This document shows positions 22,984 through 27,864 of a stretch of 33,475 nt of DNA, piece by piece. Position numbers and translations under genes: made by a program. The first letter of the stretch is position 1. Every line of letters begins with the position of its first letter. The stretch lies in NCBI GenBank assembly GCA_025062075.1, contig JANXBA010000063.1, positions 1 through 33,475 on the forward strand, read 5' to 3'. Source of the DNA: Aquificaceae bacterium. Lineage in GTDB: Bacteria > Aquificota > Aquificia > Aquificales > Aquificaceae. The notes under the pieces are model-generated. The model saw nothing but the letters and a program-made list of their open reading frames with translations, did not search any database and was not told the DNA's origin.

Positions 22984-23011
22984 ATCATTCTTGCCTTGTC
23001 GGGGCAGGCCT

Positions 23012-23017
23012 CATAAT
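23012..23017 (+). promoter_or_regulatory. -10 box of leuS alpha (leaderless start)
   Basis: CATAAT (23012-23017), overlapping AATAAT (23015-23020), lies 6 nt before the GTG at 23024. TTGCCT (22991-22996) at 15 nt could act as -35. No Shine-Dalgarno sequence. Confidence 0.4.
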
Positions 23018-23023
23018 AATCCC

Positions 23024-24859
23024 GTGGAATACAGACCCCAGGCGGTGGAGAGTAAGTGGCAAGCCTTCTGGGAACGGCAGGGGCTCTTCAGGGCGGAGGA
23101 AAAGGGCAAAAAAGTCTACGTGCTGGAGATGTTTCCCTATCCATCGGGACGTATCCACATGGGGCATGTGAGAAACTACACCGTAGGGGACGCCATAGCG
23201 CGCTTTCTCAGGTTCAAGGGCTACTCGGTGCTCCATCCCATGGGTTGGGACGCCTTCGGTCTTCCTGCGGAGAACGCCGCCATAAAGCAGGGTGTCCACC
23301 CTGCCAGCTGGACCTACGAGAACATATCCTACATGAAAAAACAGCTCAAGAGTCTGGGCTTTTCCTACGACTGGGACAGAGAGATAGCCACCTGCGACCC
23401 AGAATACTACCGCTGGAACCAGTGGCTTTTCCTGAAGTTTTTGGAGAAGGGACTGGCCTACAGGAAGCTGGCGGAGGTTAACTGGTGTCCCAACGACGAG
23501 ACGGTGCTCGCCAACGAGCAGGTCTTAGACGGGAGGTGCTGGAGGTGCTCCACGCCCATCGTGAGAAAGGAGGTCCCCTCCTGGTACTTGAGGATAACCG
23601 CCTACGCGGAGAGGCTCCTGGAAGACCTAAAAGAGCTTGAAGGCAAATGGCCGGAGAGGGTCATAGCCCAGCAGAGGAACTGGATAGGCAAGTCCGAGGG
23701 TGCAGTGCTCAAGTTCTTGGTGGGCGACCTACCCGTAGAGGTCTTCACCACGAGACCTGATACGGTCTTTGGGGCCACCTTCGTGGTGCTGGCACCCGAG
23801 CATCCCCTCACCCTTGAGCTGGCAAAAAGGGGCGGAAAGTATCAAGAGGCCAAGAGCTTCGTAGAAAAGCTCAGGCACATGTCCACCAGGGAGAGGAGCA
23901 CGGAGGAGGAAAAGGAAGGCGTTTTCCTCGGAGTGTACGCCACGAACCCTGCCACGGGGGAGAAGGTCCCCATCTGGAGTGCCAACTACGTGCTTTACGA
24001 GTACGGCACCGGCGCCATCATGTGCGTCCCCGCCCACGACCAGAGAGACTACGAGTTTGCCCAGAAGTACGGCCTTCCCATAAGGTACGTGATAAAGCCC
24101 TCGGAGGGAGAGCTTCCCACGGACAGGGCCTACGAGGGTCCGGGCTTTTTGATAAACTCGCAGGCCTTTGACGGCATGCCCTCTGCAGAGGCCAAAAGGG
24201 CCATAACCCAGTGGCTCAAAGAAAGAGAGCTGGGGGACTTTCGGACCACCTACAGGCTCAGGGACTGGAACATATCCCGCCAGAGGTACTGGGGCACTCC
24301 CATACCGGTAGTCCACTGCGACCACTGCGGGGTGGTCCCAGTGCCAGAGGAGGAGCTCCCCGTGCTCCTACCTCGGCAGGTGGAAATCACGGGACACGGA
24401 AACCCCTTAGAAAAGGTACGGGAGTTCGTGGAGGTAAAGTGCCCCAAGTGCGGTTCTCCCGCCAGAAGAGAGACGGACACCATGGACACCTTCTTTGACT
24501 CCAGCTGGTACTTCCTGCGCTTTTGCGACCCTAAAAACCACAGAATGCCCTTTGACCCCAAGAGGGTAGAGTTCTGGATGCCCGTTGACCTCTACATCGG
24601 TGGCATAGAGCACGCTGTCCTTCACCTGCTTTACGCCCGCTTTTTCCAGAAGTTTCTCTACGACCTCGGTCTGGTAAAGGACAAAGAGCCTTTTCTCAGG
24701 CTCGTAACGCAGGGCATGGTGCTCAAGCGGTGGGTGAGCGTGGAAGCCTACCTCAAACACTTGGAACAAAAGTACGGCGTGGAAGACCTTCAAAACAGAG
24801 ACCTTCAGGAGCTCGTGAGCCTGATAGAAAAGGACCTGGAGTTCACAGGTATAGAGTAG
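23024..24859 (+). CDS. leuS: Leucyl-tRNA synthetase alpha chain (split enzyme)
   Basis: The N-terminal two thirds of LeuRS. From GTG 23024 ([16 protein letters not shown]) it has 611 residues; an upstream TTG at 22991 adds residues unlike the family. HMGH is at 45-48. The zinc-1 region ([14 protein letters not shown] then CWRC), the CP1 editing domain ([12 protein letters not shown], then [19 protein letters not shown]) and the [13 protein letters not shown] and [10 protein letters not shown] blocks are all present. The chain ends [15 protein letters not shown] ... DLEFTGIE and stops where other LeuRS read YTGMSKMSKSK, so the KMSKS loop and anticodon domain must be encoded elsewhere. This is the alpha/beta split known from Aquifex aeolicus (alpha about 634 residues). 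No beta gene is in the window. Confidence 0.93.
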
Positions 24860-25793
24860 AAGACCTCTCCCTGCGTAAGGAGGCCACCAACAGCAGACAG
24901 GTGCACCCTACCGCCACAACTTGAAAAGCCCAGAAGCTAAGGAGCTTAACGTGAGCGAAAAAAGGACCTGCGTAGAGCACTAAAAACCCGGAGGAGTTCT
25001 CCACGAAGGAGAAGGCAAACAGAAAAAGACCGAACAGCAGAGAGGTTTTCCTCTTTATGCCCGCAAAGGGCAGAAGGTGAGACAGAGCAAGGACGTAAAG
25101 GGCCATACCCAGCAGGTGAGGGTAGAAGACCTTGAAAAGGCCTTCAGAACTCTTGCCCTTGACGTAGAGCTCAGGGTTTCCCAGGAGGTAGTCTTTCACA
25201 CCCTGAGGGCTAAAGCCCATCTTGAGAAAAAAGTTAAGAAAGTTAGAGAGCAGGAAAATAAGGGAAAAAAGCGCAAAAAGGCCCAAAAGCATCCTAAGAG
25301 AGCTGTGAGGAGGTCTGTTGCCCGGGCTCGTAAAAAGGCCGTAGAGAGTAAGCACCCAAAGAAGGAGAAAGACCACCTGATAAGCTAAAAAGCTCAGAAG
25401 TTTAACGACCGCAAAAGCAGGACCCAGCAGGAGTACCAAGAAGTCGCAGGAGACGTAAAAAAGGGCAAGTAGGCTTAGAGCTCCTGCCAAGAACAGCTTA
25501 AGCCCAGCAGACCAGCGAGTCAGGTTAAACAGGGACAGGAGCACTATCAAGAGCATGCCGTGCAGGAACACGCCCACGTGAAAGTCTTCGGATATCTGCG
25601 CCAGGGAGACCCTCTCTCCCAACTCTGGGTCTATGAAGAAGTAAGCCTTCAAGCTCTCAGAAGAAAAGCCGTAGCGCGAGTAGAAGTGAACCCAAGAGGC
25701 CAACCAGAAAAGGAGGGCAAAGACCATAAAAGCAACCACGCCGTGGAAAAGGACGCGATTTTTCCTGATATCAGAGGAGACAAAAAACCTCAT
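24843..25793 (-). CDS. Eight-TM inner-membrane protein built from two tandem homologous halves
   Basis: Starting at ATG 25793 gives 316 residues that are mostly hydrophobic; about eight TM helices can be drawn. I do not recognise the family. It is an internal duplication. Half 1 (about 20-155) has [22 protein letters not shown] (37-58), His72 and [20 protein letters not shown] (115-134). Half 2 (about 167-305) has [22 protein letters not shown] (188-209), His226 and [20 protein letters not shown] (268-287). GPxFAxVKLLSF and a His in the following or preceding helix are kept in both. The ATG overlaps the stop of the FMN-binding gene (ATGA), so the two are translationally coupled. The stop overlaps leuS by 17 bp. 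Paired membrane His suggests heme or metal binding, but this is inference. Confidence 0.75.
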
Positions 25794-26311
25794 CGCTGGG
25801 CGAAAACTACCTGCCAGAGGGACAGCACCTTGCGTGCGTTGTCGGTTATGGCCCGTGCGGTCAAGGTGGCCCCACTTATGTTGGGGATGTCCCTTCTGAG
25901 CCTTATCTGGTCTTTGGCCAAGTGTTTGCCTGCGAAGAGTTTGAGCCACTGCTCCTCGGGCAGGTATTCAAGTGGCTCATAAAAGGCCAGCACTTCCACC
26001 ACATCCAGCTTACCCTCAGGAGTTATGGTGTAGAGGACCACCTCTGGGTGCGTTCTGACTCTGTGCACGTCCACGTAAGCGTAGGCAAGAATCCTGCCCT
26101 CCTTTCTTACTATGTACCAAGAGACGAGCCTAGTGTCCATCTTCACACCGGAGAGCCTTTGCACCTCTTCCTGCTGCTCTTTGCTCAAGGTGATGTTCCT
26201 GACCTCTACCTGAGCACCCGGGTATATCTGGGAGAGTGCCTGCTCAGGCTTTTTTATCTCCTTTGCCAACAAAAGGCTAATTAGGGCAAGCAGTAAGATG
26301 GGCAACTGCAT
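25790..26311 (-). CDS. Exported FMN-binding domain protein (covalently flavinylated)
   Basis: A 173-residue protein from ATG 26311, which has GAGGAG 7 nt upstream; GTG 26317 lies too close to that site. Residues 1-16 (MQLPILLLALISLLLA) form a signal peptide or anchor. The FMN_bind domain ends with SGATLTARAI (146-155); in this family (RnfG, NqrC and others) ApbE attaches FMN through phosphoester linkage to the last Thr of SGATxT, here Thr151. The YAYVDVHRVRTHPEVVLYTI segment is the usual sheet before it. It has its own TTTACA-17-TATATT promoter and is coupled to the duplicated 8-TM protein downstream. It is likely a periplasmic one- or two-electron carrier. Confidence 0.85.
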   Translation of the reverse strand: MQLPILLLALISLLLAKEIKKPEQALSQIYPGAQVEVRNITLSKEQQEEVQRLSGVKMDTRLVSWYIVRKEGRILAYAYVDVHRVRTHPEVVLYTITPEGKLDVVEVLAFYEPLEYLPEEQWLKLFAGKHLAKDQIRLRRDIPNISGATLTARAITDNARKVLSLWQVVFAQR

Positions 26312-26326
26312 AGCCACTCCTCGCTA

Positions 26327-26355
26327 AATATAGGATTGCATCTTAGTATTGTAAA
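26327..26355 (-). promoter_or_regulatory. Promoter of the FMN-binding / 8-TM protein operon
   Basis: TTTACA (26355-26350) and TATATT (26332-26327) are 17 nt apart on the minus strand, about 15 nt before ATG 26311. The start of transcription would fall close to the GAGGAG site. Confidence 0.6.
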
Positions 26356-26361
26356 GACCCT

Positions 26362-26378
26362 CCCTCCCACGGGGAGGG
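26362..26378 (-). terminator. GC-rich hairpin between porin and FMN-protein genes
   Basis: CCCTCCC (26362-26368) and GGGAGGG (26372-26378) form a perfect 7-bp stem with a 3-nt loop, 22 bp after the porin stop. TCTTTAC follows on the minus strand, a weak U-tract. It probably ends or partly blocks porin transcription before the next promoter. Confidence 0.5.
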
Positions 26379-26399
26379 CACCAGCAGAGGAAAGAGCCG

Positions 26400-27803
26400 T
26401 CAGAACATAAAGCCCAGCGTAAGCCTGTACTCATTTTCGTCCCTCTTGGGCCTACTGTAGTCCAGCTTGGCGTAGTCCGCCTTTACCGCAACCAGAGGGT
26501 GTGGCTTGTAGGAGAGGCCAAAGTTGTAGACTTTCAGTTTGTTGCCCGGAGGCTTTCTGAAACCCTGTGGGACCTTGCTGTGGGTGTCAAAGTCCTCGTA
26601 TATGCCAAAGAGGTAGAGCTCTTGGCTTTCAGACCTCTGAAAGAGTCTGAACACGTCGTAGGCTACTTGCAAGTAGTAGCCCTTCTGCTCTTTTGGAAGT
26701 ATGTTGTTTACGTTAGCGCCGGTGTTGGGATTTTGCAGGTTGTTTCCAAAAAGGTCTCTGGACATTCTGAGGGCGTCGTCCACCTTCACGTAGGCCCCTA
26801 CAAACCTTACGTCCCAGCCTGCGTGTTGATACCACAGGTGGGGCAAAATCATGCTCACAGCTCCCACCTTTGAGCCTCTTCTGAGACCAAGGCCAGACTC
26901 GCTTCCACCCTTGGACTGCACATCTCCCGTCCAGAAGGAGCCACCCAGGGTGAGGTTAAAAGGTAGGTTCAGGTCCACCCTTCCCGTAAAGCCCAGCCGG
27001 TCTGCCACAGCCCTTGCACCCCTCTGTCTGGCGGTCTTTAGAGGCTCCAGCACGTTGTATCCGCCACCTCCCCTGAGCATAAGGCCGTTGGTCGCATAAA
27101 ACCTGTAGTCCACAGGGCCTACGGTGCCGTACACTCCCAAACCCATATCCTCCCAAGTAGAAAGGGCTATTCTCCTCTCAAAGAAGGGCCTCTCCGCGGA
27201 GGGGAAGGTAGGAGGCTCGTGCACTTCGTTTATTATGCCGACGGGCATGAGCAGGAGTCCGCCCCTTATCCCAAACTCGGGCCTAAACTGGTAGTCAAGA
27301 TAGGCCAGCTCCGCCTTAAAGTATCCACCACCCGTGCCGTGCTCTGCAGAGGTAGAAGCGTGCTCCAGCTCCAGCTCCGAGTTGAACTTGAGCTTTTCGC
27401 TGAAGGCGTAGCCAAAGTAGAGTATGAGCCTCTGCATGTTGGCAATGGTCTTTGCACCACCTCTGGCGTCCACGTCGTTGTGCCTGAAGAGTATCTCGCC
27501 GTATCCTCCTATGGAGACGCCTCTGGGGTTGAAGTGAACCTTGGAGGCAGCAGGACCCAAGCCAGAATAGGACTTAATCTCAAGTTGCGGCATGGCGATT
27601 TCAAGCCTGAGCTTGCGCACCTCTTCCTTGAGAACCTCCGTCTCCTTCTTTGTCTCTTCTGCCTTTTTCTGCTCTTCTTTCAGTCTTTGGACTTCCTGCT
27701 GGAGCGTTCTTATCCTTTCCTCCAGCTCTCTTATGCGCGCCTCCGTAGACTGGGCAAAGATTGCCCCCGGTAGCAGGGCAGTGGCAAGCAGTAGTGCTCT
27801 CAT
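26400..27803 (-). CDS. Outer-membrane porin with N-terminal coiled coil
   Basis: A 467-residue exported protein with signal peptide MRALLLATALLPGAIFA|Q, then a long Glu/Lys coiled coil (about 20-70, starting STEARIRELEERIRTLQQEV) and a beta-barrel ending in LTLGFMF with terminal Phe. GYGEILFRHND, RLILYFGYAFSEKLKFNSEL and LLLMPVGIINEVHEPPTFPS recall phosphate-selective-porin-like proteins, where the loop contacts the trimer pore. The coiled coil may trimerise the protein or reach peptidoglycan. TTTGGAGGT precedes the ATG and a near-consensus promoter lies upstream. It is the first gene of the minus-strand group with the FMN-binding and 8-TM proteins. Confidence 0.82.
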   Translation of the reverse strand: MRALLLATALLPGAIFAQSTEARIRELEERIRTLQQEVQRLKEEQKKAEETKKETEVLKEEVRKLRLEIAMPQLEIKSYSGLGPAASKVHFNPRGVSIGGYGEILFRHNDVDARGGAKTIANMQRLILYFGYAFSEKLKFNSELELEHASTSAEHGTGGGYFKAELAYLDYQFRPEFGIRGGLLLMPVGIINEVHEPPTFPSAERPFFERRIALSTWEDMGLGVYGTVGPVDYRFYATNGLMLRGGGGYNVLEPLKTARQRGARAVADRLGFTGRVDLNLPFNLTLGGSFWTGDVQSKGGSESGLGLRRGSKVGAVSMILPHLWYQHAGWDVRFVGAYVKVDDALRMSRDLFGNNLQNPNTGANVNNILPKEQKGYYLQVAYDVFRLFQRSESQELYLFGIYEDFDTHSKVPQGFRKPPGNKLKVYNFGLSYKPHPLVAVKADYAKLDYSRPKRDENEYRLTLGFMF

Positions 27804-27835: not shown

Positions 27836-27864
27836 ATTTTAACTAAATTGAGACCCACTGTCAA
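27836..27864 (-). promoter_or_regulatory. Sigma-70 promoter of the coiled-coil porin
   Basis: A perfect TTGACA (27864-27859) and TAAAAT (27841-27836) are 17 nt apart on the minus strand. This is the best -35/-10 pair in the window and shows that this genome does use the usual consensus. Confidence 0.75.

Follow-up and report, generated by a model that had tools for sequence, protein, structure and literature searches.

A three-gene locus in an Aquificaceae bacterium probably encodes an extracytoplasmic flavin electron-transfer module, composed of an outer-membrane porin, an exported FMN-binding protein and a quinone-linked membrane protein with eight transmembrane helices (8-TM), the last of which would be a b-type cytochrome. 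The 8-TM protein is a member of no catalogued family.

Organization of the locus

Inspection of the window, the whole 33.5-kb contig analysed here (33,475 nucleotides, from a 1.25-Mb Aquificota genome), located the three same-strand genes listed in the initial annotation, all on the minus strand. The porin gene occupies positions 26400–27803, the gene of the FMN_bind protein 25790–26311 and the gene of the 8-TM protein 24843–25793. The ATG of the 8-TM gene overlaps the stop codon of the FMN gene by four bases (ATGA, 25790–25793, minus strand), which bears out the translational coupling proposed for this pair. Two putative sigma-70-like promoters, each a consensus match only, were identified on the same strand, one upstream of the porin gene (27836–27864, 11/12) and one upstream of the FMN gene (26327–26355, 10/12). 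Since the second lies 5' of the FMN gene, the FMN and 8-TM genes may be transcribed separately from the porin, from their own putative promoter. A terminator hairpin between the porin and FMN genes was also considered and rejected, the fold being not above shuffles (z −0.53) and the terminator scan listing none there. At its convergent end, the 8-TM gene overlaps by about 17 bases with a 622-residue open reading frame similar to the alpha subunit of LeuRS (22991–24859), which we take to be part of a split leucyl-tRNA synthetase as in Aquifex.

The porin (467 residues) has a signal peptide, a coiled coil at about residues 18–70 and a C-terminal Phe, in keeping with its first description as an outer-membrane coiled-coil porin, and in several phyla orthologues of this predicted beta-barrel are encoded next to the FMN gene or upstream of it. 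It scores 17 bits against the Porin_O_P/BBP2 profiles (cut-off 20.9), and a relative in locus L057 reaches 35.9 bits (cut-off 26.2, BBP2). A porin is present in 31 of 40 Aquificota loci; because the other nine show none within the fetched stretch, a porin nearby is not strictly obligatory.

The FMN protein (173 residues) carries a signal peptide, recognized by inspection, and the sequence SGATLT at residues 146–151, as had been noted for it. Its match to PF04205 is borderline: the genome search gave 22.5 bits, where the cut-off is 22, and hmmscan gave 21.6 bits. Its relatives score about 30 bits. The flavinylation motif SGAT (residues 146–149; 25865–25876, minus strand) contains the predicted acceptor Thr149, and [ST]GA[ST] is kept in 93 of 97 FMN homologues. 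A profile search of the genome found one FMN_bind gene, that of the window, one ApbE gene (G000:C66, a full open reading frame) and no gene of the NqrB/RnfD type, so, within the FMN_bind and NqrB/RnfD families covered, the FMN protein of the window is the one substrate recognised for the genome's sole ApbE. With domain, motif, export signal and a genomic ApbE all present, the protein is predicted to be an ApbE-flavinylated FMN_bind protein. ApbE lies within the fetched stretch in 18 of 40 Aquificota and 31 of 35 Campylobacterota loci, counts that are lower bounds, many stretches having flanks of only 1.5 kb. Two further genes, named from sequence only, were observed around ApbE: a fragment of a TerC-like membrane protein near the single ApbE gene of the genome (L032:2964–3293), and a ribBA-like riboflavin biosynthesis gene that is frequently next to ApbE at the trio loci of Campylobacterota (L085–L090, L139–L142).

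Conservation of the trio across phyla

The membrane protein was found in 67 of 136 genomes of the Aquificota. When 84,980 species genomes were scanned with a pattern, the named relatives outside the phylum were Ca. Kryptonium, Methylococcus and Sulfurimonas, and profile surveys then counted 47 of 397 Campylobacterota, 22 of 369 genomes of the class of Methylococcus and 15 of 395 of the phylum of Ca. Kryptonium. These surveys are samples with one genome per species, genes in the loci were called mechanically as open reading frames, and taxa beyond the named records are assigned from the scope of each search. Most gammaproteobacterial matches belong to a haem-bearing branch described below and not to the trio type. 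In all 96 trio-type loci (40 Aquificota, 29 + 6 Campylobacterota, 1 Kryptonium, 14 of its phylum and 4 + 2 Gammaproteobacteria), the FMN gene is the same-strand neighbour of the membrane protein gene. Preservation of this pair in every surveyed trio-type locus indicates that the arrangement is more than chance, and the neighbourhood survey finds the trio recurring across several phyla. No match to the membrane protein was found in the plasmid search, where the FMN matches were distant FMN_bind proteins, and no relative was found in viral contigs. The literature on FMN, ApbE or porin systems of Aquifex, Sulfurimonas or Hydrogenobacter yielded nothing on this trio; a Sulfurovum S0 paper concerns OprD-type porins.

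The 8-TM protein is a duplicated protein of no catalogued family

The 8-TM protein (316 residues) consists of two fused 4-TM halves. Its AlphaFold2 model, built with 29 homologues, contains eight long helices with a pLDDT of 89.6 and a pTM of 0.87, and the loop charges are consistent with an N-in/C-in topology. The duplication suggested in the initial annotation is confirmed by the homology of the halves, for which hhalign of N- and C-halves encoded as separate genes gave an E-value of 5.5e-15.

The membrane protein had not been recognised as belonging to any family, and the profile and Foldseek searches agree, leaving no unrelated known function to which it could be assigned. By sequence, it matches no family in Pfam, NCBIfam or the PDB. 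The 29 8-TM members had no Pfam match at E ≤ 0.01. The transmembrane electron-transfer classes associated with flavinylation comprise NapH-like, MsrQ-like, PepSY-like, DsbD, NQR/RNF-like and DUF4405 proteins (PMC8238504, PMC11334425). None of these was matched by representatives in Pfam at E ≤ 1, by 10 single 4-TM forms in Pfam at E ≤ 0.01, or by the family members searched against NCBIfam. Foldseek searches with the 8-TM and single 4-TM models returned generic helical matches only, none with E ≤ 0.001, and no known cytochrome. Heme A synthase CtaA/Cox15 (PDB 6a2j) likewise has eight helices from two 4-TM halves with conserved histidines, but was rejected as a relative: its Foldseek TM-score is 0.22 (E 1.0), it has no profile, Pfam or fold match, and the invariant histidines of the 8-TM protein all lie in TM2 of each half.

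In common with the established flavinylation classes, the 8-TM protein resides in the membrane and its gene accompanies one for an extracytoplasmic protein predicted to be flavinylated by ApbE, and it shares with PepSY, MsrQ and DUF4405 proteins the presence of conserved histidines in membrane helices. It differs in having no Pfam match to any of them, in its 4 + 4 duplication and in an HxH motif split between the halves. The family would be a new transmembrane class within the known flavinylation-based electron transfer, absent from the classes listed in PMC8238504 and PMC11334425.

Complementary histidines in the two halves

Four states of the family were identified. A single 4-TM form occurs in the phylum of Kryptonium and in Gammaproteobacteria; a tandem pair of 4-TM genes in Campylobacterota and Hydrogenothermaceae, the tandem genes of one Aquificota family each matching one half; the fused 8-TM form in Aquificaceae and Kryptonium; and a 4-TM form with an inserted c-type haem domain in Gammaproteobacteria and Campylobacterota. 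In hhalign comparisons, the single form matches the C-half with E 1.9e-20 and the N-half with E 1.9e-14. The c-haem form matches the single 4-TM profile with E 1.8e-20, and either half more weakly, at about 1e-5.

In the single and c-haem forms, an HxH motif lies in TM2 close to its outer end. The joint alignment shows the first His in 100% of N-halves, singles and the c-haem branch and in 0–25% of C-halves, and the second His in 100% of C-halves, singles and the c-haem branch and in 0–17% of N-halves. A third His, 13 residues further on, is universal in C-halves only. Independent hhalign runs gave the same register. In the 8-TM protein of the window, the corresponding invariant residues are His72 of the N-half (codon 25578–25580), His226 of the C-half (25116–25118) and His239 of the C-half (25077–25079), all on the minus strand. 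The earlier statement that each half has a conserved His is thus right as to its presence, but the positions are not equivalent, since His226 lies two residues further along the motif than His72 and is accompanied by His239.

The phylogenetic tree supports N-halves (98), C-halves (99) and the two as sister clades (99), with the single forms outside. Together with the complementary histidines, this topology indicates that one HxH ancestor was duplicated and that the copies retained different histidines, the first in the N-half and the second in the C-half. Two helix residues at positions i and i+2 face opposite sides, so both histidines of one HxH are unlikely to bind the same iron. In the simplest reading, each site would combine two units, one supplying its first His and the other its second. 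The ancestral single form would accordingly have been a homodimer with two symmetric sites, each shared between protomers, and after duplication the pair would have retained one of them, His72 of the N-half with His226 of the C-half. The invariance of His72 and His226 is compatible with bis-His ligation of a haem b in the membrane, and a haem at His72/His226 is predicted with odds slightly better than even.

Haem-bearing relatives and redox neighbours

In the sister branch, a CxxCH haem domain is inserted in the TM1–TM2 loop, which is placed outside by the charge rule. Members of this branch adjoin EB_dh proteins (E 1.6e-50 and 1.4e-40) or a five-CxxCH cytochrome. The Campylobacterota 4-TM c-haem proteins beside EB_dh (PF09459) share the homologous 4-TM core with HxH, and differ in that the c-haem domain in their TM1–TM2 loop replaces the separate FMN protein; no family name for them was found. 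One such protein, apparently uncatalogued and conserved in Campylobacterota, lies directly downstream of an EB_dh haem protein near a two-component pair (L134–L138). Another locus, apparently intermediate between the branches, encodes EB_dh and FMN proteins together with a 4-TM protein that lacks c-haem and a cytochrome-like CxxCH protein (L181:285–2833). Across almost all branches, the 4-TM core has an extracytoplasmic redox protein as its partner.

Cytochromes also accompany the trio itself. In several Aquificota, a dihaem lipoprotein-like cytochrome is encoded between the porin and FMN genes or beside the porin. Such dihaem c-type proteins of about 540–670 residues, with CYVCH and C[IVM][AS]CH, were observed by the trio in L042, L043, L044, L045, L053, L057 and L061; that of L057 has no NCBIfam match, and that of L045 matches Cytochrome_P460 of Pfam weakly (E 0.0012). 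Locus L142 carries a five-haem cytochrome. In one Campylobacterota genome (L143:7127–11839), genes for NapC-like, DmsE-like decahaem-type and additional multihaem cytochromes, with 4, 3, 11, 7 and 8 CxxCH motifs, come after the trio. The locus of the window contains no cytochrome gene, and a search of its genome, run without a positive control, gave no dihaem cytochrome. MtrAB-type porin–cytochrome conduits resemble the system in that an outer-membrane barrel is encoded with periplasmic redox proteins, and the L143 trio adjoins NapC-like and DmsE-like multihaem genes; they differ in that the trio of the window has no multihaem cytochrome and its porin is of a different, putatively Porin_O_P/BBP2-like family.

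The exclusive pairing of the FMN and membrane protein genes, the presence of ApbE beside many copies, the c-haem in the same loop of the sister branch and the cytochrome and EB_dh neighbours together argue that the 8-TM protein is very probably the electron-transfer partner of the FMN protein, the role first proposed for it.

Proposed electron pathway and its alternatives

In the proposed pathway, ApbE would attach FMN to Thr149. Quinol or quinone would exchange electrons with the 8-TM protein, whose probable haem b at His72/His226 would lie in the periplasmic half of the membrane, and the 8-TM protein would in turn exchange electrons with the covalent FMN on the periplasmic side. From FMN, electrons would pass to a periplasmic or outer-membrane acceptor, with access provided by the porin or, in some relatives, by a cytochrome. 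Quinol is favoured over the cytoplasm as the electron source, because neither a cytoplasmic cofactor domain in the 8-TM protein nor a consistent cytoplasmic partner gene was seen.

The same parts could serve metal assimilation, the FMN protein, with electrons from the 8-TM protein, reducing porin-imported iron, manganese or another metal for uptake or homeostasis and not for respiration. Flavinylation has been linked with iron assimilation (PMC8238504). Genes for an MntP-type manganese efflux pump lie between the membrane protein and ApbE genes or near them in some Campylobacterota (L117:1964–2512, L119, L122, L149), and metal ABC transporter-like genes, named from sequence only, lie near a few Aquificota copies. 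However, no metal transporter is recurrent across phyla, and the accessory genes that do recur, where present, are cytochromes, which makes this role unlikely.

Comparably unlikely is electron uptake, where a periplasmic donor would reduce the FMN protein and the 8-TM protein would pass the electrons to quinone. FMN_bind proteins are in themselves non-directional, and the named hosts include several lithotrophs or methanotrophs (Sulfurimonas, Aquificaceae, Methylococcus), but no donor-oxidising enzyme is consistently adjacent. Moreover, the L143 neighbours are NapC-like and DmsE-like cytochromes, which usually carry electrons outward. Outward flow is the preferred direction and the more probable one. 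Least likely is an 8-TM protein without redox activity that would serve to anchor or assemble the FMN protein or to carry a ligand across the membrane: 4-TM bundles are generic and the protein has no detectable similarity to any known cytochrome, but the invariant HxH with its complementary inheritance and the c-type haem in the same loop of the sister branch would be hard to explain in a scaffold.

Implications for flavin-based electron transfer

Taken further, and more tentatively than the module itself, the quinone-to-flavin reading could describe a new class of transmembrane cytochrome, with haem held between two homologous 4-TM units by one ligand from each. Through duplication and complementary His loss, a homodimer that was symmetric and had two sites would have become an asymmetric pair with one, and the class would serve as a quinone-to-flavin relay in a porin-linked extracytoplasmic pathway of several phyla. 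Many flavinylation loci are without a recognised membrane electron source, for which the 8-TM family may be an additional candidate class. The partners of this class are defined, it is spread over several phyla, and it comes with a precise ligand prediction (His72/His226, or HxH in single forms) that one purification and one spectrum could check. The family is also a clear example of a membrane protein that underwent duplication, complementary residue loss and gene fusion, and living species still show its single, tandem and fused forms.
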